From Eucalyptus grandis (taxonomy: Eukaryota; Streptophyta; Magnoliopsida; Myrtales; Myrtaceae): DNA of 64,000 bases. Positions 398-57,978 of the stretch are shown here, in pieces. The notes under the pieces are model-generated. The model had not been told where the DNA came from and did no database searches. It worked only from the letters and a program-made list of their open reading frames with translations. Numbering within the stretch: the first letter of the stretch is position 1; each line of letters opens with the position of its first letter. Both the position numbers and the translations under genes were made by a program. Location of the stretch: NCBI RefSeq assembly GCF_016545825.1, contig NC_052619.1:40577682-40641681 (forward strand), in the 5' to 3' direction.

Positions 398-1010
398 TGT
401 CGCGACCTCTTTTTTTTCGGCGCCCGCACCGGGTACGAGCGCCTAAAGAGGCTAATGGCTCGGCTGAATTTATTAAGCCCGGACTCTCCCAAGTCCATCA
501 ATTCACGACTTAATGGTCTAAGTTTTTAACCCGCAAATCAATTTTTAAATTGGAGTCGCCACTAATCGATTTGGGGTGGGTTGATTAGAAACCCAAGTGA
601 AGTATCGAGAGAAATACTCACTCTGCGCAAACTGCAAATCCGAGAAATTAGGATTGGGGACTTGATTACACTAGTTAATCACTAATGCCCTTTCGGTACC
701 TAATCTTGTTTAAACACTAAGGTTTTTTGGATGTTCGAGGGATTTTCCATGCATTTTTGGGAGGAAAAACATTTTTTGAGTCATTTTCTAATTTTTTGGT
801 ATTTTTTTGAAAAATACAAGTCTTTTTGGCTTTTTCTGAATTTTTGGCTTTTTCATGAATTTTTGGCCTTTTTTGGATTTTGACATTTTTTGGAAAATAT
901 GAAATTTTTTTGATTTTTTGATTTTTGGAAAATAAAGCATTTTCTAAATATTTTTTAATATTTTTGGGAAATAAATTATTTTTATTATTTTTCATTTTTC
1001 GAAAATAAAA

Positions 1011-1041
<31 letters not shown>

Positions 1042-2331
1042 AATATTATTTTATATTAAAATAATATAAAATCGACTGGGTCGGATCCGCGGTTGGGTCC
1101 GACTCGGGCCGACCCACCCACGACGGGCCCGCGTTGCGGGCCCGACTCATTTTTTTTTTTTTTTTTTTATTTGAAACGGCGTCGTGGCCGGCCGTTTAGG
1201 GACACCCGGCCCGGCCCGACGACCCCGCTCCACGACTCCGCTCCGACTCACAACTCGGTTCCTTCGGAACCCTACCCGACTCGCAACCCGGCTCCCCGCC
1301 CTGCGGGATTTACGGAATCCTATTCGGTTCCCGATCCGGGTTCGACCCGACGACCCGGATCGCGACTGAAAATCGGGAACCCTAGGGTTTCCCGAATGGG
1401 GGCCCCAAGAGGTGCAGCGGCGACGATGGCGAAGACGGCGGCGACGGCGATGTTGATCGGACTTACGGAGAGGGAGATGGCAAGGGCGACGGCGACGGTG
1501 ACGGCACGATACCTGCTCGGCAATGGCGCGGCAAAGGCGACGGCAACAAGGGCAACGACAGATCGATGGCAACGACCACGGCGGACAACGATGGCGACGG
1601 TGGATCTTGGACGGTCGATCCGTCGCCGAGTTTCCCTCTCTCTCCCTCGGGCTCGCTCGGCGAACTCCCCTAAGTCTCTCGGGGACCCCTCCGAGCTCAC
1701 CACGCCACGGCCGACCCTACGCTCGAACTCCCGGGTCTCTCAAGGACCCCGAGCTCGGGGTGTTTCTTCCTCCTTTCTCTCTGTGTGTTTCTCCGGCAGA
1801 ATTTCCCCCTCTCCGGCCGCGAGCCTTCGGATCTGGGCTTGCTCAACCTCGGCTCCCCTTCTGAAGTCTCTCAGCAGGAAGCTCGAAGCTTTGCAGCCTT
1901 CGATCGTTCTCGGCGTGCCCATTGCCGTCGTTGGGGGAGCCCTATTTATAGGCAAGGGGGTGGTCGGTCGACGGAGCTTCGACCGCCGGTTCCCGCGCGC
2001 TGAACGACCTCTGCCGGCCAAACCGGCGTCCCATCCGCCATCATCTCCTCCTCCAATCACGTCCTGTCGACGCCAACTGCTTCTCTGCTTCACGTGCGCT
2101 GCCGTCCGTCCATCTCCCTCCGGCGTCGCGCCTGCCCGTGCGTGCGTTGCAGTGGCGCAAGGAGGAAGAAGACTCGGTCGGGCTGGGCCGAGGGGAGATG
2201 GGTCAAGGCCCATGCGGAGGCTGTTTTTCTGTTTTCTGTTTTTTCGTTATTTATTATCCGAAAAAGATAAAATAAAATAAAGTAAAGTTAAATAAAGCTA
2301 AATAAAACCTAACTAATTTTAGGCGTCAACA
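398..2331 (-). repeat. 3' LTR of the Ogre element
   Basis: Read on the - strand it starts TGTTGACGCC and ends GGTCGCGACA, the standard TG...CA ends. It matches 17,385-19,388 along its whole length with scattered substitutions and indels. About 720-1,080 is T-rich with a TTTA run. About 1,090-2,220 is strongly GC-rich and produces long chance reading frames on both strands. A TATA box lies at 1,942-1,951 on the - strand. Confidence 0.92.
1942..1951 (-). promoter_or_regulatory. TATA box in the Ogre 3' LTR
   Basis: The - strand reads CTATAAATAG inside a GC-rich setting, about 380 bases from the sense start of the LTR. The equivalent site is kept in the other LTR at 18,990-18,999. In this copy, transcription would run out through 398 into the LINE sequence. 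Confidence 0.7.
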
Positions 2332-2345
2332 GCTGCCCCTCTTTG
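2332..2345 (-). other. Polypurine tract of the Ogre element
   Basis: The - strand reads CAAAGAGGGGCAGC directly before the LTR start TGTTGACGCC. This is the expected position for the plus-strand primer in reverse transcription. The second Ogre-like element has nearly the same tract at 57,208-57,220. Confidence 0.8.
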
Positions 2346-2589
2346 AAGGTGAGCTCGCAGAGGTTGCATTCAAAGACAAACTGATGCCTAAATTTTATCC
2401 ATACATGCATAACATATTATATTTTACTTAGGACCTATTATCCTATGCAAAAGAGCACTATAACATTACAAATACTAAGACAGATAAGAAGATACCGTAG
2501 TTACTTACCGGGAGTGAGTGAGATAGGGTGTGAACCCCGAGTTTGGCAAGTATCGGGCGTCATCTTACCCGGTGATATGAAGATGTTGC

Positions 2590-3080
2590 TTTTCCGGGGC
2601 TCGAACCATTCTTCGGTCGCTGTTAAAACAATCAATGATTTGTCTAGGACCCGAACCTTTCTTCGGTCGCCTTGACGGGAAATTGCTTCTCCAGGACCCG
2701 AACCATTCTTCGGTCGCCTATTGGAGTAATCAGTGGTTTGTCTCGGACCCGAACCATTCTTCGGTCGTTGTGACGGGAAATTGCTTCTCCAGAACCCGAA
2801 CCATTCTTCGGTCGCCTGTTAAAACAATCAATGGTTTGTCTAGGACCCGAACCTTTCTTCGGTTGCCTTGACGGGAGATTGCTCCTCCAAGACCTGAATC
2901 ATTCTTCGGTCGCCTATTGGAGTAATCAGTGGTTTGTCTCGGACCCGAACCATTCTTCGGTCGCCGTGACGGGAAATTGCTTCTCCAGACCCGAACCATT
3001 CTTCTGGTCCGCCCGTTAAAACAATCAATGGTTTGTCTAGGACCCGAACCTTTCTTCGGTCGCCTTGACGGGAGATGCAC
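2590..3080. repeat. Tandem array A in the Ogre 3' UTR, ~49-base unit, ~195-base higher-order unit
   Basis: Ten copies of a unit with the core CCGAAccattcTTCGG start near 2600, 2652, 2698, 2748, 2797, 2849, 2893, 2944, 2990 and 3042. A variant with cctttc in the loop returns every ~195 bases (2651, 2848, 3041), showing a four-unit higher-order repeat. The core is an inverted repeat with a 5-base stem and 6-base loop. No credible protein is encoded. Confidence 0.9.
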
Positions 3081-3097
3081 TGACCTTTCTCTGGGCA

Positions 3098-3410
3098 TCT
3101 GCTTGTTGGGAGATAGTACTTGGATGATCACAAGTACAAACTCTTGGAGGATACCTGGATGATCACAAGCATCGGAGGGGTACCTGGACGATCACAAGTA
3201 CAAACTCTTGGGGGATACCTGGATGATCACAAGTATCGAAGGGGTACCTGGACGATCACAGGTACAAACTCTTTGGAGATACCTGGATGATCACAAGTAT
3301 CGAAGGGGTACCTAGACGATCACAGGTACAAACTCTTTGGAGATACCTGGATGATCACAAGTATCGAAGGGGTACCTGGACAATCACAGGTATAAACTCT
3401 TAAGGAAGAA
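3098..3410. repeat. Tandem array B in the Ogre 3' UTR, ~65-base dimer
   Basis: Alternating units of about 29 and 36 bases carry gatgatcacaagta and gacgatcacaggta. Clear copies start near 3150, 3179, 3216, 3245, 3282, 3310, 3347 and 3374. At 3244-3265 GTACCTG and CAGGTAC form a perfect 7-base stem around the loop gacgatca. The alternate unit pairs ACTTG with CAAGT around gatgatca. Confidence 0.88.
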
Positions 3411-4625
3411 TCAAGGCATACCTGAGATATTCGTGTGGAAATATCGAGGATGGGTCTTGCATATACGTGAAGGTCTCTCACCTCCTGGTAAAGGGGAATA
3501 TCGAGGACGTACTTGGGATATTCGTGAAGGTCTCTCACCTCCTGGTAAAGGGAATATCGAGGACGTACCTGGGATATTCGTGAAGGTCTCTCACCTCCTG
3601 GTAATTGAGAATATCGAGGGCGTACTTGGGATATTCGTGAAGGTCTCTCACCTCCTAGTAATTGGGAATATCGAGGGCGTACCTTGGATATTCATGAAGG
3701 TCTTTCACCTCCTGGTAATTGGGAATATTGAGAACGTGCCTCGCATATTCATGAAGGTCTCTCACCTCCTGGTAGTTGGGAATATCGAGGGCGTGCCTGG
3801 GATATTCGTGAAGGTCTCTCACCTCTTGGTAAAGGGGAATATCGAGGGCGTACCTGAGATATTCGTGAAGGTCTCTCACCTCCTGGTAATTGGGAATATT
3901 GAGGACGTGCCTTGCATATTCATGAAGGTCTCTCACCTCCTGGTAGTTGGGAATATCGAGGGCGTGCCTGGGATATTCATGAAGGTCTCTCACCTCTGGT
4001 AAAGGGAATATCGAGGGCGTACACCGAGATATTCGTGAAGGTCTCTCACCTCCCGGTAATTGGGAATATCGAGGGCGTGCCCCGCATATTCGTGAAGGTC
4101 TCTCACCTCTGGTAATTGGGAATATCGAGGACGTACCTAGGATATTCATGAAGGTCTCTCACCTTCTGGTAATTGGGAATATTGAGGACGTGCCTCGCAT
4201 ATTCATGAAGGTCTCTCACCTCCTGGTAGTTGGGAATATCGAGGGCGTGCCTGGGATATTCGTGAAGGTCTCTCACCTCTTGGTAATTGGGAATATCGAG
4301 GGCGTGCCCCGCATATTCGTGAAGGTCTCTCACCTCCTGGTAATTGGGAATATCGAGGGCGTGCCCCGCATATTCGTGAAGGTCTCTCACCTCCTGGTAA
4401 TTGGGAATATTGAGGACGTGCCTCGCATATTCATGAAGGTCTCTCACCTCCTGGTAGTTGGGAATATCGAGGGCGTGTCCCGCATATTCGTGAAGGTCTC
4501 TCACCTCCGGTAAAGGGAATATCGAGGGCGTACTGAGATATTCGTGAAGGTCTCACCTCACGGTAATGGGAATATCGAGGGCGTGCCCCGCATATTCGTG
4601 AAGGTCTCTCACCTCCTGGTAATAT
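3411..4625. repeat. Tandem array C in the Ogre 3' UTR, 57-base unit, ~21 copies
   Basis: The phrase gaaggtctctcacctc recurs about 21 times at steps of 55-59, mostly 57, from 3466 to 4612. Each unit pairs GAATAT(C) with (G)ATATTC around a 14-base loop, for example 3951-3957 with 3972-3978. Because 57 is divisible by three, several frames on both strands stay open and give 19-residue pseudo-repeats; these are not taken as proteins. Variants with cgcatattcatgaagg and a following ttggg recur every few units, suggesting segmental amplification. Confidence 0.93.
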
Positions 4626-5435
4626 AAACTTGAATGTAGCACGAGGCTTACCTGGGCTGTAGGCACTTAAAGGGGTGGAACACTGGATAGCCACGGAGTG
4701 TACAAAGTACTTTGGAATACTTGGATGACCACAAGTATTTAATGATACAACCTGGGACCACTCAGTTGGTCCAAGTGTAAGAAAGCATACCTGGGTAGGT
4801 GCAGGCACACAAAGTAGTGGAATGCTTGAACATAAGCTATTATTTAGGGACAACTCAGGCAAGTTGAGTGTCATGAAAAGGAAGTACCTGGACAATAGTG
4901 GGTACTTGACGATATAGGGATACCTAGACAGCAGTAGGTATTCCAAGAGATACTTGGTCAGTCACAAGTATCAATACTCTGGGGACAACTTGAACATGTC
5001 GAGTGTCAGGAAAAGGGAGTATCCGAACGGTGACCGGTACTCAAAGACAACAGGGATACCTAGACAGCAGTAGGTATTTAAAAATAAAGGAATACTTGGT
5101 CAGTCACAAGTATCAATACTCTGAGGACAACTCGAATAGGTCGAGTGTCAGGAAAAAGGAGTATCCGGACGGTGGCCGGTACTCAAGGACAACAGGGATA
5201 CCTAGACAGTAGTAGGAATTCAACAATAAAGGAATACTCGGTCGGTCACAAGTATCAATACTCGAGGACAACTCGAATAGGTCGAGTGTCGGGAAAGGAG
5301 TATCCGGATGGTGGCCGGTACTCAAAGACAATGGGATGCTAAGACAGTTGCAAGCATCGAAACTTAAGAGACAATTCGAATAGGTCGAGTGTCAAGAGGA
5401 GAGTACCTGAACAGCGATAGGTACCTTAAGACAAA
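4626..5435. repeat. Tandem array D and flanking hairpin units in the Ogre 3' UTR
   Basis: About three copies of a ~120-130-base unit start near 4,917, 5,052 and 5,193, each made of several inverted repeats. ATACCTA pairs with TAGGTAT (5056-5077, loop gacagcag). ATACTTG pairs with CAAGTAT (5092-5113, loop gtcagtca). ACTCGA pairs with TCGAGT (5130-5146, loop atagg). AGTA plus CCGG pairs with CCGG plus TACT (5160-5183). The lead-in 4,640-4,916 is less regular but uses the same design, for example GGACCA with TGGTCC near 4750-4770. Confidence 0.85.
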
Positions 5436-7831
5436 TGAGGATAGAGATATGCTTACCCTGGCAATATCTCGATCTCTAAGAGTATGTCGCTATTTGCACG
5501 GTATGCACACATGATTGTATATGCTGTAAATTCATGAGTTCAAATGAGATTTATGCATGATAATTTTGTCGATTCGCATCTTTTGATTTCCACTGGGAAG
5601 ATTTTGAAAGACAACCTTCATTTAGAATGTAGATGTCTTGAGCATGCCAGATGAGGGACTTTCAGTTTGAAAGGACTTTCCGCTCACTCTCATGGAAAAG
5701 GTTATCCTGACCATTGATGCAGGATTCATAAGGACCACACTTCTCACTGTCATCATGTCAACAGGGGTCTGAGTATTCTCGCAAACAGTACGACTTTACC
5801 AATGTGAGGGGTCTTTATTGAAACTGTGACGAAATCTTGGTCAGTGGCTCATCAAATGGGACCGTCGAGGTCAAGGCTTATGAATGAAGTGCCGCACGAT
5901 CATATCCAGGTTTGCAAGTCAAGGGTCCTGCGAAAAGAGATAGAATAGTCTTGCTCGCACTTCTTCGAGCGATGCTTATAGACATATGAAATCCTACGTT
6001 AATTGAAGTGCCCCTAATCTGAAGAGGCTTTTATAATGGGATGTAATGTAGGCTTGATTCACATGTAAGAGGGTGAGAGTTGGTGACTTTCTCGGCATTT
6101 GTCACTAGTCTTTCTTGTCATATGGAGGTTCTGTGGACCACAACAACAACTTTTTTTTTTTTTGGCTGTATTTTTGACTGGGGGCATTGGCCTTGCTTTT
6201 ACCAGGCACGCTGCTTTTTTCATGCCCTTATTTTTTATTCCAGTTCTTCAAATATGGGCATTGACCTTGCTTTTACCAGGTACACTGCTTTTTTATGCCC
6301 CTGCTTTTCTTGTTGCTTGAGAGCTGATCTTGGCAAGCTTAATTGAAGCACCGTTATTAGACTCTTGAGTCTTCATCTTCAACTGGCGCTCAGGCTATAA
6401 TAACTTCGCTTTGTCTTGATGTGAGGGTAAAATTACAAACTCACTTGGGTTGTATAATGAATACAAGTGCATAGAGAAAGAATTGCTCTTCGTCATTCTA
6501 GGGCACTTAAATTAACATGAGTGTTCATATGCAATAAGGACACCAAGATTGATGCAAGTGTGAGCAAGAAAATTTCTATCTCTCTTCTCACCTTGTGATG
6601 CCGCTTTGTCTCCGATCCGCCCCAAAGTGTGGGGTGGTTCTTGATGGGGGTATGAGAGAAGCTTCACCAATGTATGGGGCTCAATGGGGTGAGCGATGGA
6701 ATGCCTCTCACTGTTTTGGTTATCGTACCATTCGCGAGAGAACTCTTTATCCTACGCCATGGAATCTTCGCACTCATCTCACAAGTGTATAGATAGGGGA
6801 CTGTGTATAGGATATGGCTTGCCTTTCATCGTTTTGACGCGCCTCATTCAGCATGCTCAATTAATCTTGTATTCTTCACTTAGCTGTCTATTCTAATAAT
6901 TCTCAATGGAATCAGTGATTTAGACAGACAAAATCCTCATGCAAAATCTATGCAGCATTTTAAACATGAGAGAGTTTGTACTCTCAAAACAGATGAATGG
7001 TTTTTGCTCAAAAAGACCTTGTTGACAACTTTAAGGATTAGCGAGAATGGTGTTGTTTAAGCTTTGAACATCGAAAGGGTTATTCTCAAAGGGGTGTCGA
7101 TGGTTGTCCCTATCGATTAGGGATATGACACGTAAATGATCAACCGGGGTTGGGAATCTGATCGGGCATCTTTGTTTCTTTTTCCTTGCTTGGATCACTT
7201 GGTTTGCCCTGTTTAACCATTTGATCTGGCTCTTGAATTCCAATGCCTCCTGTCAATATGAGTTCGGAGAGTGAGTGTTAGAAATGATGCCAAATTACCT
7301 TTCCCCGAGTTTATTTGTCTGGTTTTTGGGAAAGTTGCTTGGCCTCTTTTACATTTCAATGCTTTCCTTCATGAAATTTTCCATTCTGTCTTTGATTAGC
7401 GGCATTGGGCACAATCATGTATCTCAAACTTCTATGGAATTTGAGATAGATAATTACTTCTTGCGAGGGCATGCATCGGGAACAAGAAGTGAGGCTTTCA
7501 GATTCTAAGATTGTTAACTGGGACGAAGGTTCCTTCTAACTGACCGGCTCTGAATGATGCGTCCTTTACACCGAGTCAGGCGAAATTGACATGGATTATT
7601 CTTACACGTCTGCCTGGGTAATGTCGATTTGCTCAAGTTATGCCATCGAGTTTGCTACTTGATTTTCGACATTTCCCTAAATGCTGGTGATTACTATTCA
7701 TTTTCTTTCATTAAGTCAACCGAACACACATTCTTTATGATGGTGTAGATACATCACTCATATATGAAAGGTGCATAGGCATTTTCAATCTGATATAGAA
7801 GTGTTTGGCAATGCCAGACAAGGAACATCTT
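5436..7831 (-). other. Ogre 3' untranslated region with modules shared by the second element
   Basis: No pol homology and no convincing gene is present between the arrays and the integrase stop. Several stretches recur in the second Ogre-like element. The phrase ggccttgcttttaccagg occurs at ~6190 here (a variant, ttgaccttgcttttaccagg, at ~6259) and at ~60,070 there. The phrase gggtggttcttga occurs at ~6633 and ~60,466. The phrase gagagttggtga occurs at ~6074 and ~59,830. A 70-codon - strand frame at 7,031-7,243 has no recognisable domain and is not called. Confidence 0.6.
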
Positions 7832-8870
7832 TTAAGGATAGTACTTTTTTACAGCATCCGAGTTAACTGGCTTAGAGAATTCTCGCCCATCCATCTCAGT
7901 TAGGATCAAGGCTCCTCCGGGGAGTATCTTTTTTATTACATAAGGACCCTTGTAATTTGGGGCGAACTTGCCTACAGGCTCTGGAAAGATTGGCAGCGTC
8001 TTTCTCAAGACTAGCTCGTCTATCTCGAAGTTCTTGGGTCGCACCTTTTGATTAAATGATCGAGCTACCTTCGCCGATAACACCGACCGTGGCGAGGGCT
8101 TTCGATCGCTTTTCATCGATCATGTTCAGGCTGCTCAAGCCTTTGTTGTGTCCATTCTTCCTTAGATAATCCAGCCAGTGATAAAATTCGTAGGGAAGGG
8201 ATTTCTACTTCCACGGGTAAACCGCCTCCATACCATAAACCGGGGAAAAGGGGTTGCCCCGAAGAGAAGTTCGAATCGAAGTTCGATATCTTTGTCGCCG
8301 CGAAGGATAGCCTCTCGTGCCGGTCCGCGGTAATTTTCAGCCGTCTTGGCTAGGATTCTCTTGATGTTCTTGTTGGCGGCCTCAACAGCCCCATTCATTT
8401 GCGAACGATAAGGGGATGAGTTCAAATGCTGGATCTTGAACTCGTAAAATAATTGATCAATCGGCTTGTTGTTCGATTTGTCCCATTGTCGGTGATGATC
8501 GAATACGGCACGCCATATCGGGCGATTATGTCACGTTTGATAAACTTTATGACATTTCGTGCAGTTACGCTTGCATATGATGTGGCCTCAATCCATTTTG
8601 AAAAGTAATCAATTGCAACCAAGATGAACCGATGCCCGTTTGACGCCTTTGGGTTAATTGGGCCAATTACATCGATGCCCCACATTGAAAACGGCCATGG
8701 CTCGGATAACTGATGCAGTTCAGTTGGAGGGACATTTATCTTATCCCCATGAATTTGACAACGATGACAACTCCGTACATGCTGAGCACAATCATTCTCT
8801 AAAGGGAGCCAATAATAACCAGAGTCTCATTATCTTCTTGGCCAACATACGTCCATTCATGTGAGGGCCA
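7832..8870 (-). pseudogene. Ogre integrase, frameshifted
   Basis: Integrase would insert the cDNA into chromosomal DNA. Sense order: a zinc-binding HHCC region (about 8,700-8,790, ending CAQHVRSCHRCQIHGD in a shifted frame); the core with MWGIDVIGP, TDNGTN and the glutamate in MNGAVEAANKN (8,162-8,685), giving the D, D and E catalytic residues; then a C-terminal domain (7,832-8,116) with GPYVIKKILPGGALIL, the usual Tat/Ogre integrase tail. The core is split at 8,422-8,425 and the zinc region is out of frame, so no full protein can be made. There is no chromodomain, as expected for Tat. Confidence 0.88.
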
Positions 8871-8928
8871 CATACTCCCTCATGTATTTCTTGCATTATT
8901 CGTGTGGCTTCGCCTACATCCACACACC

Positions 8929-9657
8929 TTAGCGGACTGAGTCATACGATCTTTTGTACAGATTTTCACCGCTGACGAAAAACTTTGAAGCCATTTTCAT
9001 TAGATATTTTCGATCAGAGGGAGTTCTTTGTTCATGGAACTCTTGCTTCTGGACGTATTTCATGATATCGTGATACCAGGGTTTCCCATCGGGTTCTTCA
9101 GTAATAGCCATGCAGTAGGCTTGTCTTGCCAGGACTTCAATTTTTAAAGGCTCTACTTCTAACCCTTTCGTTGCTTGCAACATAGATGATAGCGTTGCTA
9201 GTGCATCAGCGAACTGATTATGAATTCTAGGTAGGTATTCAAACGAGATGTCTTGGAATTTTCCCGCCAATTTTTCTAAGTAACCATGATAAGGCACAAG
9301 CTTGGCGTCTTTTGTCTTCCATTCGCCCAACGTCTGGAGGATTATTAAGGTAGAATCGCCGAACACCTTTAGCTTTGTCACTCCCATTTCAATAGCCGCT
9401 TGCAAGCCGAGGATGCATGCTTCATACTCGGCTATATTGTTGGTGCATGGAAATATCAATTTTGCAGCCACCGGATAATGTTGTCCATTTGGGGATATCA
9501 AGACTGCCCCAGTGCCGGAGCCTGACAAATTTACGGCTCCGTCGAAGAACATAGTCCATGTGTCTTCTACCGCTGATATTCGATCGTCCGGGGGATTATC
9601 CTTGCGTACTCCTTTAGGATAGTCTGCTAACATATCAGCAATCACCCGTCCTTTAAC
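8929..9657 (-). pseudogene. Second, archaeal-type RNase H domain (aRH) of the Ogre element
   Basis: The frame 8,929-9,645 holds WTMFFDGAVN, NNIAEYEACILGLQ, FGDSTLIILQ and NQFADALATL, the ordered acidic motifs of a complete RNase H fold (D, E, D, D). It lies after the normal Ty3 RNase H. A second RNase H of this type is established for the Tat clade and is thought to have been acquired separately. It is joined to the upstream part by a frame containing a single TAA at 9,658-9,660, so the domain itself is nearly intact. Its role would be degradation of RNA in RNA:DNA hybrids. Confidence 0.85.
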
Positions 9658-9671
9658 TTATTTTTGCGACA

Positions 9672-11239
9672 TCACTTGAATGTCGAATTCCGAGATCGAT
9701 TTGCCATTTGGCCAATTTTCCTACCAATGTCTTGGGCGACCGAGCAAATACTTGATCGGATCACTTTCGCCACGAGGAAAGTTTGGTAATGCAAGGTATA
9801 CTGTCGGAGCCTATGCAACACCCATACTAATGCGGCGCATGTTTTTTCTGATTTGGAGTAGTTTTGTTCTGATGTGGTGAACTTTTTGCTCAAATAGTAG
9901 ATGGCTCGCTCCTTCTGGTCATGGGGATCCTTTTGTGCCAGCATTGCACCTAAGGATTCACTGTTGAGGGTAAGGTAGAGAATTAAAGGGTGCCCCGGGA
10001 CTGGAGGTACTAGAATCGAGGGTTTCATCAAGTACTGCTTTAGGTCTTCAAATGCGAGTCGGCAATCATCATCCCATTTAATTTGTGCATCCTTCCTGAG
10101 AAGTTTAAAGAATGGTTTTGTAGTTTCAGAAAGCTGGGAAATGAATCGGGCAATGTAATTTAATCTTCCCAGAAGGCTCCGGACTTTTTTTACAGTTGAA
10201 GGAGGAGGCATCTCAAATATCGCCTTGGTTTTCGATGGATCTACTTCTATTCCTTCACAGCTTACAATGAATCCAAGTAATTTGCCAGAAGTTGCCCCCA
10301 AACACACATTTTGCTGGATTCAAGCGCAACTTAAACTGGCGAAGTCGCTCAAATAGTTTCTCCGTGGTCTTCGCATGGTTCTCTCCATATCTGGTTTTAG
10401 CGATCATGTCATCGACGTATACTTCAATTTCTTTGTGCATCATGTCATGGAAAAGGGTGACCATGGCTCGTGGTAAGTTGCTCCAAAGATTTTTTAGGCC
10501 AAAAGGCATGACCTTATAATGGAAAGTTCCCCATGGAGTAATGAACGCCGTTTTTTCCTTGTCTTCCTCCTTCATCTTTATTTGGTTGTATCCCGAGAAT
10601 CCATCCATAAAAGAGAATAGTTTGAATCCTGCAGTACTGTCCACTAGAACGTCTATGTGGGGTAATGGGAAATCATCTTTCGGGCTTGCCTTGTTCAAGT
10701 CACGATAGTCGACACAAATACGTATTCGACCATCCTTCTTCTTCACTGGCACAATGTTTGCTACCCAGCTGGGGTATCGCGAGACTTCGAGGAAACCCAC
10801 TTCGAGGAGTTTCATTACCTCTTCTTCAATCTTTTTTGACAGTTCTGGCTTGGTTCTTCTTAGCCGCTGCTTCTTGGGGGCTATGTCAGGGTTGGTTGGC
10901 AAACTATGCTCCACGATCATTGGATCAAGGCCTGGCATATCCGCGTATGACCATGTGAATATGTCATGATACCTCTTTAGGAGGGCAATCAAGCTTGCAG
11001 CTTCTTCTTTAGGAAGGTTCACGCCAATCTTTATCTCCCTTGGACCTTCTGTGCTGCCCAAATTGACGATGACGGTGTCTTCAGTGGTGGAAGGCCTTGT
11101 TTCTTCATGACGCTCCCAATCTCGTTGAACTTCATCGGAATTATCAAAGTCATCATCTGAGCTATCAGAATTGCTATTATGGCTATCCACGATGTTGGTT
11201 TGGACCGCCCCCATACCCTTGCCTACCGCTAGATCATTC
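9672..11239 (-). pseudogene. Ogre reverse transcriptase and first RNase H, frameshifted
   Basis: 11,214-10,300 carries the reverse transcriptase fingers and palm: KKKDGRIRICVDYRDLN, FMDGFSGYNQI, MPFGLKN and the catalytic VYVDDM. The frame shifts by one base in a C run at 10,295-10,299 and continues in 10,294-9,672 with GFIVSCEGIEVDPSKTKAI, the connection and the Ty3 RNase H (PLILYLTLNSESLGAMLAQ, YSKSEKTCAALVW). A further shift near 9,780 garbles the RNase H end. The frame is open upstream of the first ATG to an AG at 11,240-11,241, then meets a TGA, which fits a splice acceptor there. It would copy element RNA into cDNA in virus-like particles. Confidence 0.9.
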
Positions 11240-11600
11240 CTGTGTCATAGAGTAGATAGGCTAAGAGGACAAATAAGGTTAGTAGAATGCATGCTCTCTT
11301 TTTTTTTTGGAAATGTGATAAATTGTTCTTGAAGATTTAGGATAAGGAAACATGAGGAGACCCGGGCCTCAGATTTTTTCTTTCATTTGACGGCCGGCAG
11401 CTATCATCAACGGGCCGGTTTAGTATGTCTCCTCATGCCCTCAAAATGTTTTCAACTTTATTTATTAATAGACGGATTTACAGAGTGATTTCAAAAAATG
11501 GTTCCCCGGGTGGAACTGATGTTGAAAACAAAACAAGCTAGGCTCTTTTAAAAAAAAGTACAGGCTCCCACGTAGGGGAGTATGCGAAGGAAATAAAAAG
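11240..11600 (-). other. Probable intron/spacer between Ogre protease and reverse transcriptase
   Basis: The - strand from about 11,600 to 11,240 is full of stops and T-rich. It ends CTACTCTATGACACAG directly before an in-phase open frame into the reverse transcriptase. Ogre elements are known to carry an intron at this place. The acceptor side is convincing. The donor is not resolved: the upstream frame ends in GAINEGPPREMGANPLE then TAG near 11,606, and a GT lies near 11,560. It could instead be a stop-containing spacer. Confidence 0.5.
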
Positions 11601-12670
11601 GATTCTACTCGAGCGGGTTTGCGCCCATTTCCCTCGGCGGTCCTTCATTGATAGCGCCCACGAAAAAGTCTTCATACCAGCCCCAGCCACATCTCCCCGT
11701 GCTTGCGGCTTTGCATTCCGATCATCCATGCCTTCCCATCCATCAGGGACGATGTGGTGATGATGATCATAGAAACTTTGGGGGATTGAATAATTGACAT
11801 AGTAGTCAAATTTACCACTTGGCTGACCCAAAGTGTCCATGATCATCTCTCCTCTACGTGCTTCCTTAGCATGCTCGGGAACATGGTACGAGTGTCGGGT
11901 ACCACGAGGAGGTGATCTTTGCCAACACACAATGCCACGGAGAGCGGAACGTGAATACCCCAAAGATCTAAAAGATCCCGAACCTTGTCTTTCAGATGGC
12001 ATGCCATCTAACGAGTGTCCTAATTCCCCGAATGATAATCACATTGTTTGGATGGATCATAATCAAGGAAGTACTCGGGGTAGGATGACTCGGTTCCACG
12101 GTGATTAGCCCTTGCTCTAGGAGGATGGGAAAACGATGGCCATCGATTTAGGAAGAGGCGAATACGCCTCATGCTTTTGAGGACCGAGATAGCCGGACCC
12201 CCTTGCCGATCGCATCGGTAGGGTCTTCTACCGAATCCTCACTATGACGAGAGCGGAATGTGCGGGTAGCTTGAGCGAAGTTTTCCGTCAAGTGGTGTAC
12301 TTGTCTCGCGTAGTTCATCAACTTGGCGTTGAAGCCGGATGAATGAGAAGTTATCGCCTGTTCTTCTAATCTCCTCCTCAATAGCACATATGGAAATGTC
12401 TCCAAACATGGTGGTCATGTCATCCGGCTCCTCTTTCTTTGAGGGCCAAGTTGTGCCCTCCTGGATTACGGGCAAGTTTGAGCTCCCGAGGTTGAACCAA
12501 TTTGGAGTATTGATCACTCCCTCCTCTTCACGCATCATCCGGGCTGGGCCCGGGAAAGTTTCCTCGAGACGGGGTATAAAGGCCGACTTTTTCTTTGCTT
12601 TTCTATCCGGGAGGTATCCTAAACCGACCGTGTAGGGTCTCCTCAAGGCTTCAATAGGTTGACGGATGCC
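11600..12670 (-). pseudogene. Ogre pol linker downstream of the protease, broken
   Basis: Sense frames 12,646-12,242, 12,405-12,169 and 12,002-11,600 contain polar, charged sequence. They include PYTVGLGYLPDRKAKKK at the start (continuing the G-patch region) and a histidine-rich YDHHHHIVPDGWEGMDD stretch. Such a linker normally separates protease and reverse transcriptase in Ogre polyproteins. At least two frame changes are visible. No catalytic motif is present. Confidence 0.6.
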
Positions 12671-13512
12671 CTAGCCTTCCTTACCAAGCCCTTGTCCTGG
12701 AATGAAACCGTGTCCAACCATGATTTTTCCTACCATGATCGCAACACTTGATACTTCGGGACGAGGGCAAGGTCCCTCGAGTTTCGTGTACGTAGACACG
12801 AGCTCGAATGATTGATAGCTGGCTTCATTCTTGTCACCTGGCTCAACATAAGGAATGACTGTCTCATGGTAGATACGGTGGTCTTCTTCTCCTCGGACCG
12901 TTATTAGTTTTCCCCCAACCACGAACTTCACACTTTGGTGGAGGCTTGAAGGTACCGCTCCCGCGACGTGGATCCACGGGCACCTTAAGAGGAAATTGAA
13001 CGCAGTGGAAATATCCATCACCTGGAACAAAATTTTAAATTCGGTTGGGCCAATTTGAACGTCGAGCTCGATCTCTCCCACCGTTTCCTTCTTTGTTCCA
13101 TCGAATGCTCGAACAGAAGTCTTGGGTACCTGGATCCGTGATCTATCTATTTGAAGGCGACAGAGTGTCGCTAGTGGACATATGTTAAGAGCAGATCCGT
13201 TGTCAATCAGCACTCGGGCGACGTGAGATGCATTGCATTTGACTAATATGTAGAGGCCTTTGGTGTGTCCTCTACCCTCCTCAGGGATTTCTTCATCAGA
13301 GAATGCCATTTGATCTTTCGTAAGAATGGTGCCGACAAATTCCTCGAGTTTGTCATGCTCAATCGTTTCAGGACATGTACCTCACTTAATACCTTCATGA
13401 GGGATTTTTGATGTTTGACAGATGTCTGAAGCAACTCCAGCAGAGAGATTTGTGCTAGTGATTTTCGTAATTGTTCCACCACATTGTATTCGCTGGCCTT
13501 AACTACGGCCAA
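12671..13512 (-). pseudogene. Ogre aspartic protease with G-patch-like motif
   Basis: The frame 13,512-13,243 (YNVVEQLRKSLAQISLLELL) leads by a frame change into 13,309-12,671. That frame has the retropepsin-like active site VLIDNGSALNICPL, with DNG where DTG/DSG is usual, as often seen in Tat elements. After it come FNFLLRCPWIHVAGAVPSSL and a G-patch-like GHGFIPGQGLGKEG. The G-patch is cut by a TAG at 12,671-12,673 where a glutamine codon is expected (CAG to TAG). The sequence then continues in frame as GIRQPIEALRRPYTVGLGY. The protease would cleave the Gag-Pol precursor; the G-patch role in these elements is unknown. Confidence 0.8.
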
Positions 13513-13548
13513 AAACTCCCCGGCTTCTTCGTCGCTGATGCTTAGCGA

Positions 13549-15322
13549 CTACGCATTCGCTTGAGCATAGGTTCGCCTGGATCTCGTGACTAAACCCACA
13601 TCAAGGTCATAGGACCATGGTACCGCATTATTACATTCATATTTGTAAGGCTGGGGGATTTCAATGACTATAGCTGCTTCCTCTATCGATGCTTTGACTA
13701 TGGCTCCTCTTCCTTCAGATACATCCTCGGTGGGGTGGAGTTCTTCTTCTTTTTTGGCATTCGCGCGGCACATTCCTCATCCCGTTGATGAGGACTTGTG
13801 ATATAGTGGAAACTATGCTAGTGCGATCAACTTGCACGATTATTCCGGCCTCTACCATCCTTGATACCCTTTCTTCCATTGTCGCCAAAGGTGGTTTTTG
13901 GTCATTTGAATAATACCCGGCTTCTACTAGCCCTCGGTAGATGTCAACAGCATGTGCATTGACATTTTTGATTTGACTGGCTTCAGAACCAAATATCGCA
14001 TTTACTTTGTCAGCATGATCAGGGAGCGGATTGCTTTGGACATTTGGTTTCGTCATCTGGAATGAGAAGGCTTTAGTATCTAGCAGGTTCTGGATTCGGT
14101 GTTTAAGGATGAAGCAATCATCAGTTGAATGACCTACTTCTCCCATGTGATAATCGCATTTTTTGGACGGGTCATAGCTGGAGAAGCTTTCAGCATTGGG
14201 TCGTTTTGGCTCAATTGAGAGGAGATTCTTGCTCCGGAGGATTGCCAAAACTCGGGAAGGAGATCCGTGCAGCGGAGTGAATTGTCTTCGACCGTTGTTG
14301 CGTTGAGGCCGACGGCTATTGGTCTGTTGTTGGCTTGCGCTTGTCTGAACGGTGGGGAGGTGACCGGCACTCGCAGTGTAGGTGGTATTGACATCGATCG
14401 GGGGCTCTTTATCCTTTTTCATGCTGAACCTTCGCCGACAGCACAGCTCGGTGAACCAACCATCCCTTAATCCTATCTCTATCTCGCTCTCCCACCGGAA
14501 TGAGTTGATTGAATGATTCAGCGATCGTAGTCACCATCCGGTTGCGGTATTCATAGGGGAGGGTTTTGATGAACATTTTTCTCAATTCAAAGTCGGTGGC
14601 TCGGGGCTAATCTCGGGGCGGCGAGATTCCTCCACCTAATAGCATATTCTTTGAAAGATTCTTGTTTTTTCTTTTCCGTGCGATCGAGGTCCTCACGAGA
14701 AGGGGTAATATCCATTATGAACTTGTACCGTTTGAGGAATGCTTCACTTGCTTCACTCCATGTTTCAATGAGGTTTATGTTTTTCTTGATGTACCACCTC
14801 AAGGCGGGACCTACCAAGCTTGATTGGAACAATCGGATCATTAAAGGCACATTACTAACGCATCGGGTCATTCGAACCAAGTACATTTGCAAGTGAGCCC
14901 TTGGGCGTCGTCGTGCCATCGTACTTCTCAAATTCAGGCATCTTAAACTTTTCGGGCATTTTGACTTTGGAGTAGATAGAGAGGTCCGTCGGAGTAGGAT
15001 CTTGCAGGCTTGCGGTTTTTAGCCTTTCTTCTAGCTTCTCAGTACTCTTATCATGCTCGCTTTAGATGAAATGCTGGGTTTTACTTTCTCAACTATGATT
15101 TGGTGCGCGTCATCCTCCAATTCGGGCATGCTATCGTCGGTTTCTTTTCCCCGCTCTCCTCGGGTGGATGATTGCGGTAATACTACTTCAATTGAGGCCG
15201 GGTAGGGGCCAATTTGCCCGGATGGAATCTATTTGCTTTGAGAGTTGTTGAAGCACATTGAAGACCCGCTTCATTTCTTTTTCCATAATCTCGACACGGC
15301 TTGGTACATTTTCTTCAGCCAT
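13549..15322 (-). pseudogene. Ogre Gag, broken into several frames
   Basis: The start is placed at the ATG at 15,320-15,322, opening MAEENVPSRVEIMEKEMKR with a coiled-coil-like LQQLSKQIDSIRA. The capsid-like gag domain lies at 14,931-14,587 (LFQSSLVGPALRWYIKKN, then SREDLDRTEKKKQESFKEYA). The 14,422-13,715 frame adds a low-complexity Q/N/R segment and a zinc-knuckle-like CDYHMGEVGHSTDDC. 13,773-13,549 continues towards the protease. Gag would form the particle and bind genomic RNA. Frame changes near 14,580, 14,450 and 13,760 disable it. Confidence 0.82.
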
Positions 15323-15555
15323 CCAAGCTTTGGATTTGGTGATTATGGCTATGTTGTGATTACCTGTCAACACAGGAAATGGAGAAAACGTAAATAAAGG
15401 AAACACATGGAACACTCGGCTCATGGCAAGGGTCGAGTCATTCTTATTTATTAACAAGAGATTTATACAATGCCAAAAGGATTTTTGACACAAGTCAGGA
15501 TGACCCTAGACATTCACATTAAAATATTCACATCAAAAAGCCACGACACCCATTT

Positions 15556-16851
15556 TTATATGTGATGGGAAGTCTCGATCTTGCGACGCCGTTTGCTCTT
15601 TTGAGATAACTTTGATATGCGCCTCTTGCTGGTCTTCAAACTTTCTTCAAGAGACTTGATCCTTTCTTGCTTGGTAAGTTGGCTACTTACATCGTGATTA
15701 CCGGCCGCAACTCCTCGGAATCCCATGGTTGAGGATGTAAAAGGTGGATGCATGATGGGCTTTTTCCTGTCCCTTCAATCTTCTGGGTACAATAATCTTC
15801 TTTGGGTGACATCTATCCCATGCATTCTGAATTATGTTGATTTCCTCTAAGTAGTCATGACCGGTGGGGTTGAAAGAAACTCGAAATAGTCCTGTCTTGA
15901 GTGGTGGCGGGATTTCTTGAAGGATTCTGTACTGGCGAGCCACCCTATATGGATAGTATGAGGTAGCTCCAGAGAGACCCAGCAGTGGGATGGGATCATA
16001 ATAATCAAGCGCAAAACGTGCCTCGCCCGCAAGGAACCACTTAGTTCGCCATATGAATGTCTCTGGGAGCGGGTTTTTTAATAAGTCAATCCATTGAGAA
16101 TATTCTTCATCGGGAGAATACTTCTCAAAGCTTTGGAACTTTTGTAGTGGGTGCTTGGACTCATTAATTTCAAATATTTGCATGAGGTGCCCAAATCCTT
16201 TGATATGGGAAAAGAACCACATTTGTAAAATTTCAGGGGCAGCTTTCATGATCTTTTCTTTTTGATCTTTGAAACGGTTAAGGGATAAAAATGTTTCGGC
16301 CAAAACCATGTTTACGTATCCCGCTCCGAAAATAATTTGATTTATTACCTCACGATTGAAGGATTTATGGCATTCTTTCTATAGGGGAAGACAATAAATC
16401 CAAAGAACGCCAAAAGGAAGATCTTGGTTTTTTGGGACATCGACTGTTTTTCAAAGCATTCGGTTAAGGATGATAGTGGGAAAGCATTGTTGTTGTTTTT
16501 AACAATTTCTCTTACTGAATGATCTTTTAAAAAACGTGACAGACTGACTACGGGGTCGATGCTGATTAGTGGCTTAGCAAGCTCCGCTCCCAGGGGCATT
16601 CCTATGGCGAAACTGTATTCCTCCAAAGTGGGGGTCAGTTCAAATTTGCTAAACACGAAGGTGGATGTTTCCGGACACCAAAAATGTGGCAGGGCTTGCA
16701 TGACCCCAGAGTGAATATTGATTTGGAGCAATGGGAGGAGATGACCAATCGTCATGTTGACACGTTCTTGGCCGAGCTGATCTAATTGATTCCACCATAT
16801 GAGGAGTTCTTTCTTTGGAGCAGGAATGAACTTGATATCAATTCTTCCCAT
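15556..16851 (-). pseudogene. Ogre ORF1 (extra reading frame upstream of gag)
   Basis: The start ATG is at 16,851 on the - strand (MGRIDIKFIPAPKKELLIWW). The 16,851-16,345 frame has ALPHFWCPETSTFVFSKFEL and PTLEEYSFAIGMPL, typical of the ORF1/plant-mobile-domain-like (DUF7745-like) proteins in Ogre. A one-base loss near 16,348 shifts into 16,309-15,698 (FSHIKGFGHLMQIF, then DYYDPIPLLGLSGA). Another shift near 15,740 leads to a basic coiled-coil tail (SLEESLKTSKRRISKLSQ) ending at 15,556. Its function is not known. Its presence separates Ogre from most other Ty3 lineages. Confidence 0.78.
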
Positions 16852-17384
16852 CGCATTTAAAAAGGGGGCTAAACAACTTGACCCTATGCTGCCATGAGCT
16901 AGAAGAGACTAAGTAAAAGTAAATAAATTACTTTGCTTTTAAATAAAATGGCAAGCACAGAGACATACAGATGGAATGTGCGGCTCGATTTCTAACTCAG
17001 AAGGCTTGGTGAGGTTAAAAGGATATCCGCCCGTCGCAGTCTCGCGTTAGCAGCATACCCTCCTAACCTCGGCTAAGAAATTCGGGGAAAAGAAAGGCAA
17101 CCTCTACATCGTAGTCTCACGTTCGAGGTCGTATCTTTCTTAACACCATCCTAGAAATCCTATGGCGGCGCAGGTCCAGCGGCCGGGTTGTGTGTGTCAT
17201 GTGTAGTGTTTAAAACAGTAAAGCATGCACAACAGTTTATAATCACAAAACATTTTATTTTAACAGAATAAAAACTTTAAGCTATTACCCCGCACAAAAA
17301 AAAAAAACCTAAAGTCAGCAAAGCATTTAAACAAAGATGAAATGGCCTAAGTCCTCAAAAATGGTCCCGAGTGGAGTCGCCAGG
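16852..17384 (-). other. Ogre 5' untranslated leader
   Basis: This sequence lies between the primer-binding site and the ORF1 start. It contains no long frame. It has an A-run at 17,297-17,307 and two loosely similar segments with gtctcgcgtt and gtctcacgtt near 17,040 and 17,117. Nothing else is recognised. Confidence 0.5.
17364..17382 (-). other. Primer-binding site of the Ogre element (tRNA-Arg-like)
   Basis: The - strand reads TGGCGACTCCACTCGGGAC, two bases inside the 5' LTR end. The form TGGCGACTCTGCTGGGGA, complementary to a tRNA-Arg 3' end, is the usual Ogre primer site from family knowledge. The match here is good but not perfect, in line with decay. Confidence 0.65.
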
Positions 17385-19388
17385 CGTCGCGAGCTCTTTT
17401 TTTTTCTACGCCCGCACCGGGTACGAGCGCCTAAAGAGGCTAATGGCTCGGCTGAATTTATTAAGCCCGGACTCTCCCAAGTCCACCAATTCACGACTTA
17501 ATGGTCTAAGTTTTTAACCTGTAAATCAATTTTTAAATTGGAGTCGCCACTAATCGATTTGGGGTGGGTTGATTAGATACCCAAGTGAAGTATCGGAGAA
17601 ATACTCACTCTGCGCAACTGAGAAATTAGGATCGGGGACTTGATTACACTAGTTAATCACTAATGCCCTTTCGGTACCTAATCTTGCTTAAACACTAAGG
17701 TTTTTGGATGTTCGAGGGATTTTCCATGCATTTTTGGGAGGAAAACATTTTTGAGTCATTTTCTAATTTTTTTGGACAAAAAATGGATTTTTTGGGGTTT
17801 TTTGGTATTTTTTTGAAAAAATACAAGTCTTTTTGGCTTTTTCTGAATTTTTTGGCTTTTTCATGAATTTTTGGCCTTTTTTTGGATTTTTGACATTTTT
17901 TGGAAAATATGAAATTTTTTTGATTTTTTGATTTTTGGAAAATAAAGCATTTTCTAAATATTTTTTAATATTTTTGGGAAATAAATTTATTTTTTATTAT
18001 TTTTCATTTTTCTAAAATAAAATATTTATTATTTATTTATTTATTTAAAATATTATTTTATATTAAAATAATATAAAAACTGACTCCGGGTCGGATCCGC
18101 GGGTTGGGTCCGACCCGGCCAAGCAACCCACTCGCGGACGGGCCGCGTGCGGGCCCGACTCAGATTTTTTATTTTATTTTATTTTATTTTATTTTTTATT
18201 TGAAACGGCGGCGTCGTGGCGGGTGTTCGGACACCCGGCCCGGCCCGATGACCCGGCTCCACGACTCCGCTCCGACTCACAACCCGGTTCCTTCGGAACC
18301 CTACCCGACCCGGCCCGACTTCGCGCAACCCGCTCCCCGCCCTCCGGGATTTATGGAATCCCTATCCGGTTCCCGATCCGGGTCCGACCCGACAACCCGG
18401 ATCGCGACCCGGAAAATCGGGAACCCTAGGGTTTCCGAATGGGGGCGCCCGAAGAGGTGCGCGCGACGATGGCGAAGACGACGGCGACGGCGATGTTGAC
18501 CGGACTTACGGAGAGGGAGATGGCAAGGGTGATGACGACGGTGACGGCACGATACCTGCTCGGCAATGGCGCGGCAAAGGTGACGGCAACAAGGGCAACG
18601 GGCAGACCGATGGCAACGACCGCGGTGGACAACGACGGCGACGGTGGATCTTGGACGGTCGATCTGGCCGGATCCGTCGCCGAGCTTTCCCTCTCTCTCC
18701 CTCGGGCTCGCTCGGCGAACTCCCCAAAGTCTCTCGGGGACCCCTCCGAGCTCACCACGCCACGGCCGACCCTACGCTCGAACTCCCGAAGTCTCTCGGG
18801 GACCCCGAGCTCGGGGTGTTTCTTCCTCCTTTCTCTTTGTGTGTTTCTCCGGAACTTCCCCTCCGGCCGCGAGCCTTCGGATCTGGGCTTGCTCAACCTC
18901 GGCTCCCCTTCGAAGTCTCTCGGCAGAAGCTCGAAGCTTTGCAGCCTTCGATCGTTCTCGGCGTTCTCATTGCCGTCGTCGGGGGAGCCCTATTTATAGG
19001 CGAGGGGGCGGTCGGTCGACGGAGCTTCGACCGCCTGTTCCTGCGCGCCGAACGACCTCCGCCGGCCAAACCGGCGTCCCATCCGCCATCATCTCCTCCT
19101 CCAGTCACGTCCCGTTGACGCCAATTGCTTCTCGCTTCACGTGCGCCGCCGTCCGTCCATCTCCCTCCGTCGCGCGCTGCTTTGCCCGCGCGTGCGTTGC
19201 AGTGGCGCAAGGAGGAAGAAGACTCGGACGGGCTGGGCCGAGGCAGAGATGGGCTGAAGGCCCATGCGGAGGCTGTTTTTTCTGTTTTTCTGTTTTTTTT
19301 CGTTATTTATTATCCGAAAAAAGATAAAATAAAATAAAGTAAAGTTAAATAAAGCTAAATAAAACCTAACTAATTTTAGGCGTCAACA
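17385..19388 (-). repeat. 5' LTR of the Ogre element
   Basis: This is the partner of 398-2,331. It starts TGTTGACGCC on the - strand and ends GCTCGCGACG, so the terminal CA has changed to CG. The same T-rich block (17,700-18,060) and GC-rich block (18,070-19,280) are present. It has extra bases, for example a longer TTTTA run at 18,167-18,199. Confidence 0.92.
18990..18999 (-). promoter_or_regulatory. TATA box of the Ogre 5' LTR promoter
   Basis: CTATAAATAG on the - strand, about 390 bases from the LTR start, is identical to the site in the other LTR at 1,942-1,951. It would drive the genomic RNA of the element leftwards. Confidence 0.75.
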
Positions 19389-19393
19389 AGGAT
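19389..19393. repeat. Target-site duplication of the Ogre element, right copy (aggat)
   Basis: Repeats 393-397 exactly. The LINE reading frame continues in phase at 19,394. Confidence 0.9.
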
Positions 19394-56900: not shown

Positions 56901-57207
56901 GATGATTATTTAAGGGCTCGGGCGCAAATTTTGCAAAATTTGCGAATTGGTCCTCGACTTTTGGAAATTGCATTTTGGCCCCAAATTGTCATTTGGATTC
57001 CAATCTGACCTCCTAGGCTTGGCTAGTCACATTTAGATCGTTGGCCCCAACTTGCTCTCTCTTTTTTTTCTTTCGATTTTTTTCTTTTTTTTTTTAAATT
57101 ATTTTTTTTTATAGGAAAAACATCTTTCATTTAAAACACGATATTAAACACCTAGATAATCTATATGTTGGAATGAAATATTTTTGGGCAAAAATTAGGT
57201 GTCAACA
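53984..57207 (-). repeat. 3' LTR of the second Ogre-like element (3,224 bases)
   Basis: On the - strand it starts TGTTGACACC and ends GTCGTGACA. The outer ~250 bases resemble the first Ogre LTR in layout (gtcgtcactagcctattggg versus gtcgccactaatcgatttgg). The middle has no convincing gene; 55,771-56,157 is an open + frame without a domain. A possible TATA, ATATATAG on the - strand, lies at 56,527-56,534 near a CACGTG. Confidence 0.82.
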
Positions 57208-57220
57208 GCTGCCCTCTTTG
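57208..57220 (-). other. Polypurine tract of the second Ogre-like element
   Basis: The - strand reads CAAAGAGGGCAGC beside the LTR start, one base shorter than the tract at 2,332-2,345. The following aagctcnnagaggtt...ttcaaagan also matches, so this short region is conserved between families. Confidence 0.8.
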
Positions 57221-57404
57221 GAAGGAAGCTCAAAGAGGTTTCTTTCAAAGATAAGGTGACGCCTAATTTTTTGTTTTTTTTTGTTTTTTTGTTTTTTTTT
57301 TTTGCAATTGTAAAATGAAAATGCAAGTAAGCTTAATGTAAAGAGCGTGATCTAGGGATGTACTTGTGAACAATTTGAAAAGTGTGGTTTAAGGATATAC
57401 CCAC

Positions 57405-57978
57405 GAACCTTGTGGTTTAAGGCAGTCCCACTAACCGTGTGGTTTAAGGCAATCCCACTAACCGTATGGTTTAAGGCGATCCCACTAATCTTGTGGTTTA
57501 AGGCGATCCACTAACCGTGTGGTTTAAGGCAGTCCCACTAACCTTGTGGTTTAAAGCAGTTCCACTAACCCCGTGGTTTAAAGCGAGATCCACTAACCGT
57601 GTGGTTTAAGGCAAATCCCACTAACCTTGTGGTTTAAGGCGGATCCACTAACCGTGTGGTTTAAGGCGCCCCACTAACCGTGTGGTTTAAGGCAGTCCCA
57701 CTAACCTTGTGGTTTAAAGCGATCCACTAGGCGCCTCACTAACCTTGTGGTTTAAGGCAGATCCACTAGGCAGTCTCACTAACCTTGTGGTTTAAGGCAG
57801 ATCCACTAACCGTGTGGTTTAAGGCAGTCCCACTAACCGTGTGGTTTAAGGCAGTCCCACTAACCTCGTGGTTTAAGGTAGACCCACTAACCATGTGGTT
57901 TAAGGCAATCCACTAACCTTGTGGTTTAAGGCAATCCCACTAACCGTGTGGTTTAAGGCAGTCCCACTAACCGTGTGG
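57405..57978. repeat. Tandem array E, ~27-base unit, about 20 copies
   Basis: The unit is ccactaaccgtgtggtttaa plus ggcagtc with small variation. CCAC pairs with GTGG around taaccgt (57,428-57,442), and AACC with GGTT around gtgt. Length variants (ggcgatc, ggcagatc) are mixed. Confidence 0.92.

Follow-up and report, generated by a model that had tools for sequence, protein, structure and literature searches.

Tandem arrays in the 3' untranslated region of a Eucalyptus Ogre retrotransposon contain hairpins whose pairing appears to be retained while their sequences change

The window analysed here, a stretch of 64,000 nucleotides (nt) from Eucalyptus grandis (contig NC_052619.1, positions 40,577,682 to 40,641,681), contains a long terminal repeat (LTR) retrotransposon of the Ogre/Tat type whose 3' untranslated region (UTR) carries tandem arrays, called A, B, C and D below. 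We think the chances evenly balanced that, in this Eucalyptus Ogre lineage, the 3' UTR arrays consist of hairpin modules strung in series whose structure is under selection. The comparisons support an upkeep of pairing in some of the array types. Hairpins of types A and B/D are of old origin, as nearly every one of the 40 copies compared has them, and A is also found in two sister families; the alignments support the view that both would have stayed paired through changes of sequence for as long as the lineage replicated. That the two halves of these hairpins appear to change together suggests that the fold itself was kept. The features of the element, all on the minus strand, are as follows.

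398..19388, minus strand, Ogre/Tat LTR retrotransposon carrying arrays A-D (18,991 bp; LTR pair, flanks and domain matches)
398..2331, minus strand, 3' LTR of the Ogre element
2332..2349, minus strand, purine-rich tract whose end is AAAGAGGGGCAGC, adjoining the LTR start TGTTGACGCC (printed sequence)
2586..3076, minus strand, array A, 10 units of ~49 nt, each capable of forming a two-helix hairpin
3100..3410, minus strand, array B, nine 22-nt hairpins (7-8-7) with a spacing alternating between 35 and 29 nt
3420..4625, minus strand, array C, 20 units of 53-58 nt preceded by one degenerate unit
4626..4915, minus strand, diverged stretch, not an array in Tandem Repeats Finder (TRF), containing six hairpins (one placed by eye) that are in phase with those of D
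4916..5435, minus strand, array D, a 142-nt higher-order unit of four hairpin monomers
17386..19388, minus strand, 5' LTR of the Ogre element

A first-pass annotation, made from the letters alone, had placed the arrays in an Ogre 3' UTR, and this was confirmed by the LTR pair, the target-site duplication (TSD; AGGAT at 393-397 and 19389-19393) and the domain matches. Since the two LTRs are 88.6% identical, this is an old copy. One gene of the window matches an E. grandis protein at 98% identity. The matches to a reverse transcriptase (RT; RVT_1), an RNase H (RT_RNaseH_2) and a second RNase H-like domain (RVT_3), together with a DUF7745/plant mobile domain match at 15698-16908, fit Ogre, and an excerpt of PMC6317226 gives a plant mobile domain in 57% of Ogre elements. 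The large size, the LTRs and the TSD are likewise those of Ogre (Tat lineage, Ty3/gypsy). RVT_3 lies after the RNase H, and no integrase open reading frame (ORF) was recognised in the element among the ORFs of the window and the domain matches. The arrays sit in the 3' UTR between pol and the 3' LTR and vary among copies, as Tat/Ogre 3' UTR arrays do, and the purine-rich tract at 2332..2349 is, judging by its position, presumably the polypurine tract.

The first-pass annotation had described four unrelated arrays with periods of about 49, 65, 57 and 130 nt, each unit centred on a perfect hairpin with a loop often of exactly 8 nt. All six stems that it named are where it had put them and are perfectly complementary. 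TRF delimited arrays at 2586-3073 (period 98, twice 49), 3116-3401 (64), 3436-4623 (57) and 4916-5331 (142), the period of D being 142, not 130. The hairpin of A consists of an outer helix of variable sequence, an internal loop, the 5-bp perfect stem CCGAA/TTCGG and a 6-nt loop that is mostly GAATGG or GAAAGG, and the hairpins of C are of the GAATATC-14-GATATTC type, with an additional GGAGGT-5-ACCTTC on the transcript strand. Loops of exactly 8 nt therefore hold for B/D only, the loops being 6 nt in A, 14 in C and 5 in the third hairpin of D; one-nucleotide bulges recur in the third and fourth hairpins of D. Together, D and the stretch before it form 21 consecutive hairpin positions between 4716 and 5426 that are 34.3 ± 2.0 nt apart, 19 of them from the hairpin catalogue and two, imperfect, placed by eye.

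The arrays are not unrelated. B matches 4700-4738 in the middle stretch (87.5%), the alignment of D enters the same stretch from 4847 (84.6%), and the hairpin cores of B, 4626-4915 and D align gap-free; B and D have no direct BLAST match to each other. B, D and 4626-4915 seem to form a single family whose monomers measure 29-37 nt and contain a 22-nt hairpin core (7-8-7), and this kinship rules out four independent arrays that each follow one rule. The half sites of B/D differ (GTACCTG, ATACTTG, ATACCTA, GTATCCG) and the symmetry is retained. Symmetric half sites spaced regularly at 29-37 nt could also represent dyad-symmetric DNA sites for a dimeric protein, with the strands left unfolded, but half sites that change while the symmetry stays are the reverse of what a conserved recognition sequence would show, and loop lengths differ among the hairpin types; we regard such sites as very improbable.

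Perfect stems of at least 6 bp with a loop of 3-16 nt were counted and compared with dinucleotide shuffles of each region. They were in excess in B (4 vs 0.56), C (22 vs 3.3), the stretch 4626-4915 (3 vs 0.81) and D (8 vs 0.98), and there was no excess in A (0 vs 1.5). As repeat copies lack independence, shuffling was also applied to single units, and the longest stem of the unit was matched in 38 (B), 38 (C) and 46 (D) of 1000 shuffles and in 786 of 1000 for A. The idea that each unit centres on a perfect hairpin beyond what shuffled controls give thus stands for B, C and D, and the 5-bp stem of A is at chance level. Single-unit stems reached by about one shuffle in 25, with A unremarkable, are compatible with a by-product of tandem duplication, by which ancestral units with chance inverted repeats would have been amplified and a few old paired types inherited without upkeep, and hairpins may themselves promote duplication; the comparison of copies makes this, in our judgement, an unlikely account. 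The folding z scores of the units were -1.96 (A), -3.48 (B), -2.16 (C) and -2.85 (D) on the transcript (minus) strand, and -0.16, -2.55, -0.54 and -3.92, respectively, on the plus strand. Folding energy alone was dropped as a criterion, and the support for array A comes from comparison. Outside the arrays, a lone local hairpin at 7582-7681 on the minus strand had a folding z of -6.4, the lowest among the tiles tried across the Ogre element.

The comparison of copies started from a search with array A that gave at least 120 matches; 40 of 899 candidates were scored and 39 further 3' UTRs were retrieved, with L001-L008 excluded as the window itself or re-retrieved copies. B-like sequence is present in all 39 of the other copies, and C-like and D-like sequence in 38 each (not in L025 and L017, respectively), with sizes that vary widely. 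Within the window 23 of the 30 B/D hairpin positions were aligned (22 distinct), the seven others having a different loop length or register. On the transcript strand, 92.2% of the cells of these 23 cores are paired, compared with 85.7% after shuffling and at most 45.5% for slid partners, and 19 cells have changed on both sides, compared with 8.1 in the shuffles.

A profile of the B/D core made from sequence only then gave 627 ungapped matches comprising 355 distinct 26-mers (25 of 652 matches were gapped and left out, and matches covering too little of the profile had been removed earlier). In the 80 variants present in at least two loci, 464 of 560 cells are Watson-Crick, compared with 383 ± 8 in a column shuffle. 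A tree-based null, in which the same number of changes is re-placed on the inferred tree, gave 317 ± 39 and reached 464 in none of 500 runs, this null being lenient, since its B/D mean lies below the column shuffle and the make-up of the columns is shifted; slid pairings resemble it. Six of the seven pairs have a second Watson-Crick type in at least six of the 355 distinct variants. The Watson-Crick share was 0.852 in the 27 variants found in at least four loci, 0.817 in the 53 found in two or three and 0.757 in the 275 private ones, and private variants that are worse paired than shared ones would be expected if pairing decays after insertion.

Sister families were reached by using the second RNase H domain as a query, which gave at least 150 places, and six of these (65-78% amino-acid identity) were hand-picked for spread. 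All six have arrays ahead of the next LTR-start-like motif. Three of them are tied to the element of the window by a further part of the UTR.

5436..6302, minus strand, UTR segment common to the sister families L048, L052 and L053 (~64-65%) and partly to a second element of the window, E2

A-type units occur in L052 and L053, where the alleles CCGAA/TTCGG and CCGTA/TACGG coexist; 22 of their 23 units have A-T or T-A as the inner pair (AT 7, TA 15, GA 1). Of the 57 shared 45-mers in the family of the window, 41 have A-T as the outer pair of A and 10 have C-G (51/57). The outer helix, although variable in sequence, still has 80.8% of its cells paired. When 32 of the 33 units from the three families were aligned (one with a core insertion was left out), 86.5% of the cells were paired, compared with 77.6% in shuffles and at most 50% for slid partners, and 36 cells had changed on both sides, compared with 16. 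Watson-Crick cells numbered 304 of 384, compared with 244 ± 16 under the tree-based null, which reached the observed value in none of 500 runs; for the outer helix alone the null reached the observed pairing in 3 of 500. The Watson-Crick share of the inner helix was 0.920, 0.894 and 0.836 in variants from at least four, two or three, and one locus, respectively, gapped or short matches for A and C having been removed prior to counting.

The core of A is also conserved as sequence. Compared with the best window unit, its 25 nt including the loop agree at 226 of 250 (90.4%) and 253 of 275 (92.0%) positions, values that are somewhat favoured by the fact that the L052 and L053 units were found by the core profile, and the linkers agree at 164 of 248 (66.1%) and 179 of 321 (55.8%), with letters facing a gap counted as differences; the UTR flanking A is ~64% identical between families. 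The coupled pair accounts for 32 of the 50 differences in the core between families. The A-type arrays of L052 and L053 seem to lie directly after the common UTR segment, without a match to B, C or D, and the content of the arrays therefore looks modular between families. L048 has C-like sequence and three hairpin classes, two of which share the loop AGTCTGGATCT on different stems; its 180-nt units at 1749-2301 hold three hairpins, two of them with that loop.

These comparisons tell against amplification without upkeep, since the tree-based null never reaches the observed pairing of either B/D or A (0/500) and the core of A is retained between families. A further argument comes from coupled events, defined as branches on which both partners change and a Watson-Crick pair is replaced by a different one. 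Trees built from all columns gave three such events in B/D and three in A, and none for slid partners; with trees from unpaired columns only there were 10 in B/D (slid partners 0-1) and 8 in A (slid 0). Coupled Watson-Crick events thus occur at the true partners and hardly at slid ones, which a duplication by-product does not account for, although the all-column trees need only three of them for each type, which it could accommodate. Changes on the same branch exceeded random placement when the trees were built from unpaired columns (random placement did as well in 4 of 1000 runs for B/D and 44 of 1000 for A). Since sequences of 26 and 45 letters give weak trees, the counts of coupled events are suggestive. 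In array C the outer six pairs are almost unchanged and the seventh is often broken, so that 302 of 336 cells are paired compared with 293 in shuffles, a small excess.

Coupled changes can also arise in one step. Template switching by a polymerase or reverse transcriptase between the imperfect arms of an inverted repeat would perfect the stem and produce paired changes without any function; the mechanism has been proposed for RNA hairpins (in an excerpt of PMC8794818) and is also described in an excerpt of PMC8604942. It fits the wide variation of B/D stems whose pairing nevertheless persists, the coupled A-T/T-A change in A, which would require no wobble step, and mispairs that are neutral as to strand. 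However, template switching keeps pairing and not sequence, and the loop and core of A are conserved beyond the linkers and flanks. Inverted loops, allowing at most one mismatch, were absent among the 34 loops of shared B/D variants, the recurrent one-nucleotide bulges in the third and fourth hairpins of D have been left unrepaired, and variants separated by two steps do not show paired jumps in excess. We consider template switching on its own a possible explanation, and a less probable one than selection on structure; the two may also act together.

Several results weigh against selection on structure, beside the leniency of the tree-based null and the retrieval of sister-family units by their core. 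Relatedness inflates two of the shuffle measures least, namely how many pairs have changed on both sides and how many pair types occur, and neither was significant: in the 23 cores of the window they were 4 vs 2.9 (reached in 111 of 500 shuffles) and 9 vs 8.2 (150/500), and in the A units 6 vs 5.0 (163/500) and 16 vs 14.5 (127/500), results that also suit inheritance from a few amplified types. With all-column trees, same-branch changes were close to random for both B/D (4 vs 2.4, 186/1000) and A (4 vs 3.8, 557/1000). B/D variants two substitutions apart showed no compensatory excess (4 kept pairs vs 1-3 for slid partners), which is what would be expected if recent changes arose after insertion, without constraint. 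RNAalifold predicted zero pairs on the 23-core B/D alignment of the window and a weak, partly different structure on the 32-unit A alignment. Array D folds better as the plus strand, and array C, being nearly invariant, carries little information on covariation. G·U and A·C mispairs on the transcript strand were about equally frequent in the shared variants of B/D (12 vs 12, 28 vs 25) and of the inner helix of A (4 vs 6, 7 vs 10).

The near equality of G·U and A·C extends to the private B/D variants; the outer helix of A in L052 and L053 has 20 G·U and 8 A·C, in few related units. A transcript-strand wobble preference as proof of selection on RNA was therefore ruled out, and its absence also fits dyad DNA sites. 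As to the compensatory changes by which the first-pass annotation proposed to check its idea, pairing in A and B/D is retained beyond column shuffles, slid partners and the tree-based null; pairs changed on both sides and pair types did not rise above shuffles, and coupled events are few. The two causes it had offered, selection for RNA structure and a replication mechanism that amplifies hairpins, are partly separated, with the conserved core of A favouring selection and the mispairs lending no support from the transcript strand.

The same annotation had suggested that arrays in general obey one hairpin rule. Unit folding on the transcript strand covered 13 Ogre arrays and excluded a TRF array that lies within the LTR of L050. 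Of the 13, six had a z of -1.9 or lower, four of which are A-D of the window. The nine further arrays gave a mixed picture: L048 (-3.75) and the first array of L050 (-1.91) were at this level, and the other seven ranged from -1.51 to +1.34, so that the rule is unsupported as a law. By a stem-weight measure three of seven fetched arrays (L049, the first of L050, and L052) lay under 5% of the shuffles. No hairpin excess was found in the first array of E2, the arrays of L051 or the second array of L050, which counts against selected structure and suits duplication without upkeep. E2 served as a comparator within the window.

57207..60113, minus strand, 3' end of a second Tat/Ogre-type element, E2 (polypurine tract/LTR and UTR similarity)

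Its arrays, at 57382-57978 and 57979-59036, occupy the same slot as A-D in the same orientation; for stems of at least 5 bp the first is poor (1 vs 7.2) and the second mildly enriched (25 vs 14). A 98% match to an E2 array lies ~11 kb downstream (G000:C8:40646066). Since two GC-rich arrays of the window that lie outside both 3' UTRs (49838 and 53216) have stronger palindromes still (z -3.5 to -5.1), the presence of hairpin arrays does not by itself set Ogre apart. The array at 49838, with strongly palindromic units (z about -5), is one of the GC-rich tandem arrays at 49535-49951. A large inverted duplication at 52708-53844 (~75% over 1.2 kb) with GC-rich internal repeats resembles a foldback element, and a smaller one lies at 50944-51081. 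Adjoining the insertion point of the Ogre element, ORFs at 19370-21656 resemble a LINE by eye.

Selection on the structure of the hairpins would most plausibly be purifying and act on the nucleic acid of the replicating element in its folded form, probably the RNA genome. The repeated hairpins would then offer several putative binding sites for a protein of the element or the host, a candidate being Gag, which would use them in packaging or dimerisation. Retroviral packaging and dimerisation hairpins and export elements are small non-coding hairpins of genomic RNA that are read by Gag or host factors, and the packaging and dimerisation hairpins are usually single or few and lie close to the 5' end, whereas here there are tens of copies at the 3' end. 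Macas reportedly described, in 2009, hypervariable tandem repeats within Tat/Ogre 3' UTRs. The arrays resemble these Tat/Ogre repeats in being family-specific, placed between pol and the 3' LTR, several per element and variable between copies, and differ from them in the hairpin monomers with pairing kept through changes and in a core shared between families. Copy number would vary because tandem units are easily gained and lost during reverse transcription, as an excerpt of PMC7004042 suggests in a general way for Tat/Ogre arrays.

According to excerpts of PMC7004042, PMC11963269 and PMC6317226, Tat/Ogre 3' UTR arrays and their link to satellites are already known; Ogre arrays seed many satellites in Lathyrus (Vondrak 2020, PMC7004042), and the origin and function of the Retand arrays are described as unknown (Vicient 2025, PMC11963269). 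Retand, in the same excerpt, likewise has tandem arrays between pol and the 3' LTR but belongs to another Tat branch and carries antisense TRP28 ORFs. The terms hairpin, palindrom and dyad have no match in the text of PMC7004042, nor have hairpin, secondary structure, inverted and stem in that of PMC11963269, or hairpin in that of PMC6317226. The template-switch maintenance of PMC8794818, as far as its excerpt goes, provides a comparable route to coupled changes without intermediates, but concerns RNA genes in DNA replication, whereas the units here are repeated in a retroelement. Within open-licence literature, to which subscription papers do not belong, no paper on hairpins in Ogre/Tat arrays was found by title or the start of the abstract. 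In IMG/VR the exact hairpin patterns had 0 matches each, and searches with the RT protein and by alignment were unproductive. A chance ORF of the array, used as a protein query for other species, gave no match.

A broader generalisation, that Ogre arrays are no neutral by-products and instead form multivalent structural elements, with tens of hairpins in each genome, whose alternative hairpin types are swapped between families and selected for number and fold, and that the plant satellites derived from them start as RNA-structure modules of a retroelement, seems to us possible but rather doubtful. Coupled changes and a hairpin core shared between families nevertheless provide a handle on constraint inside Ogre arrays, with which the question of why Ogre elements carry arrays becomes testable.

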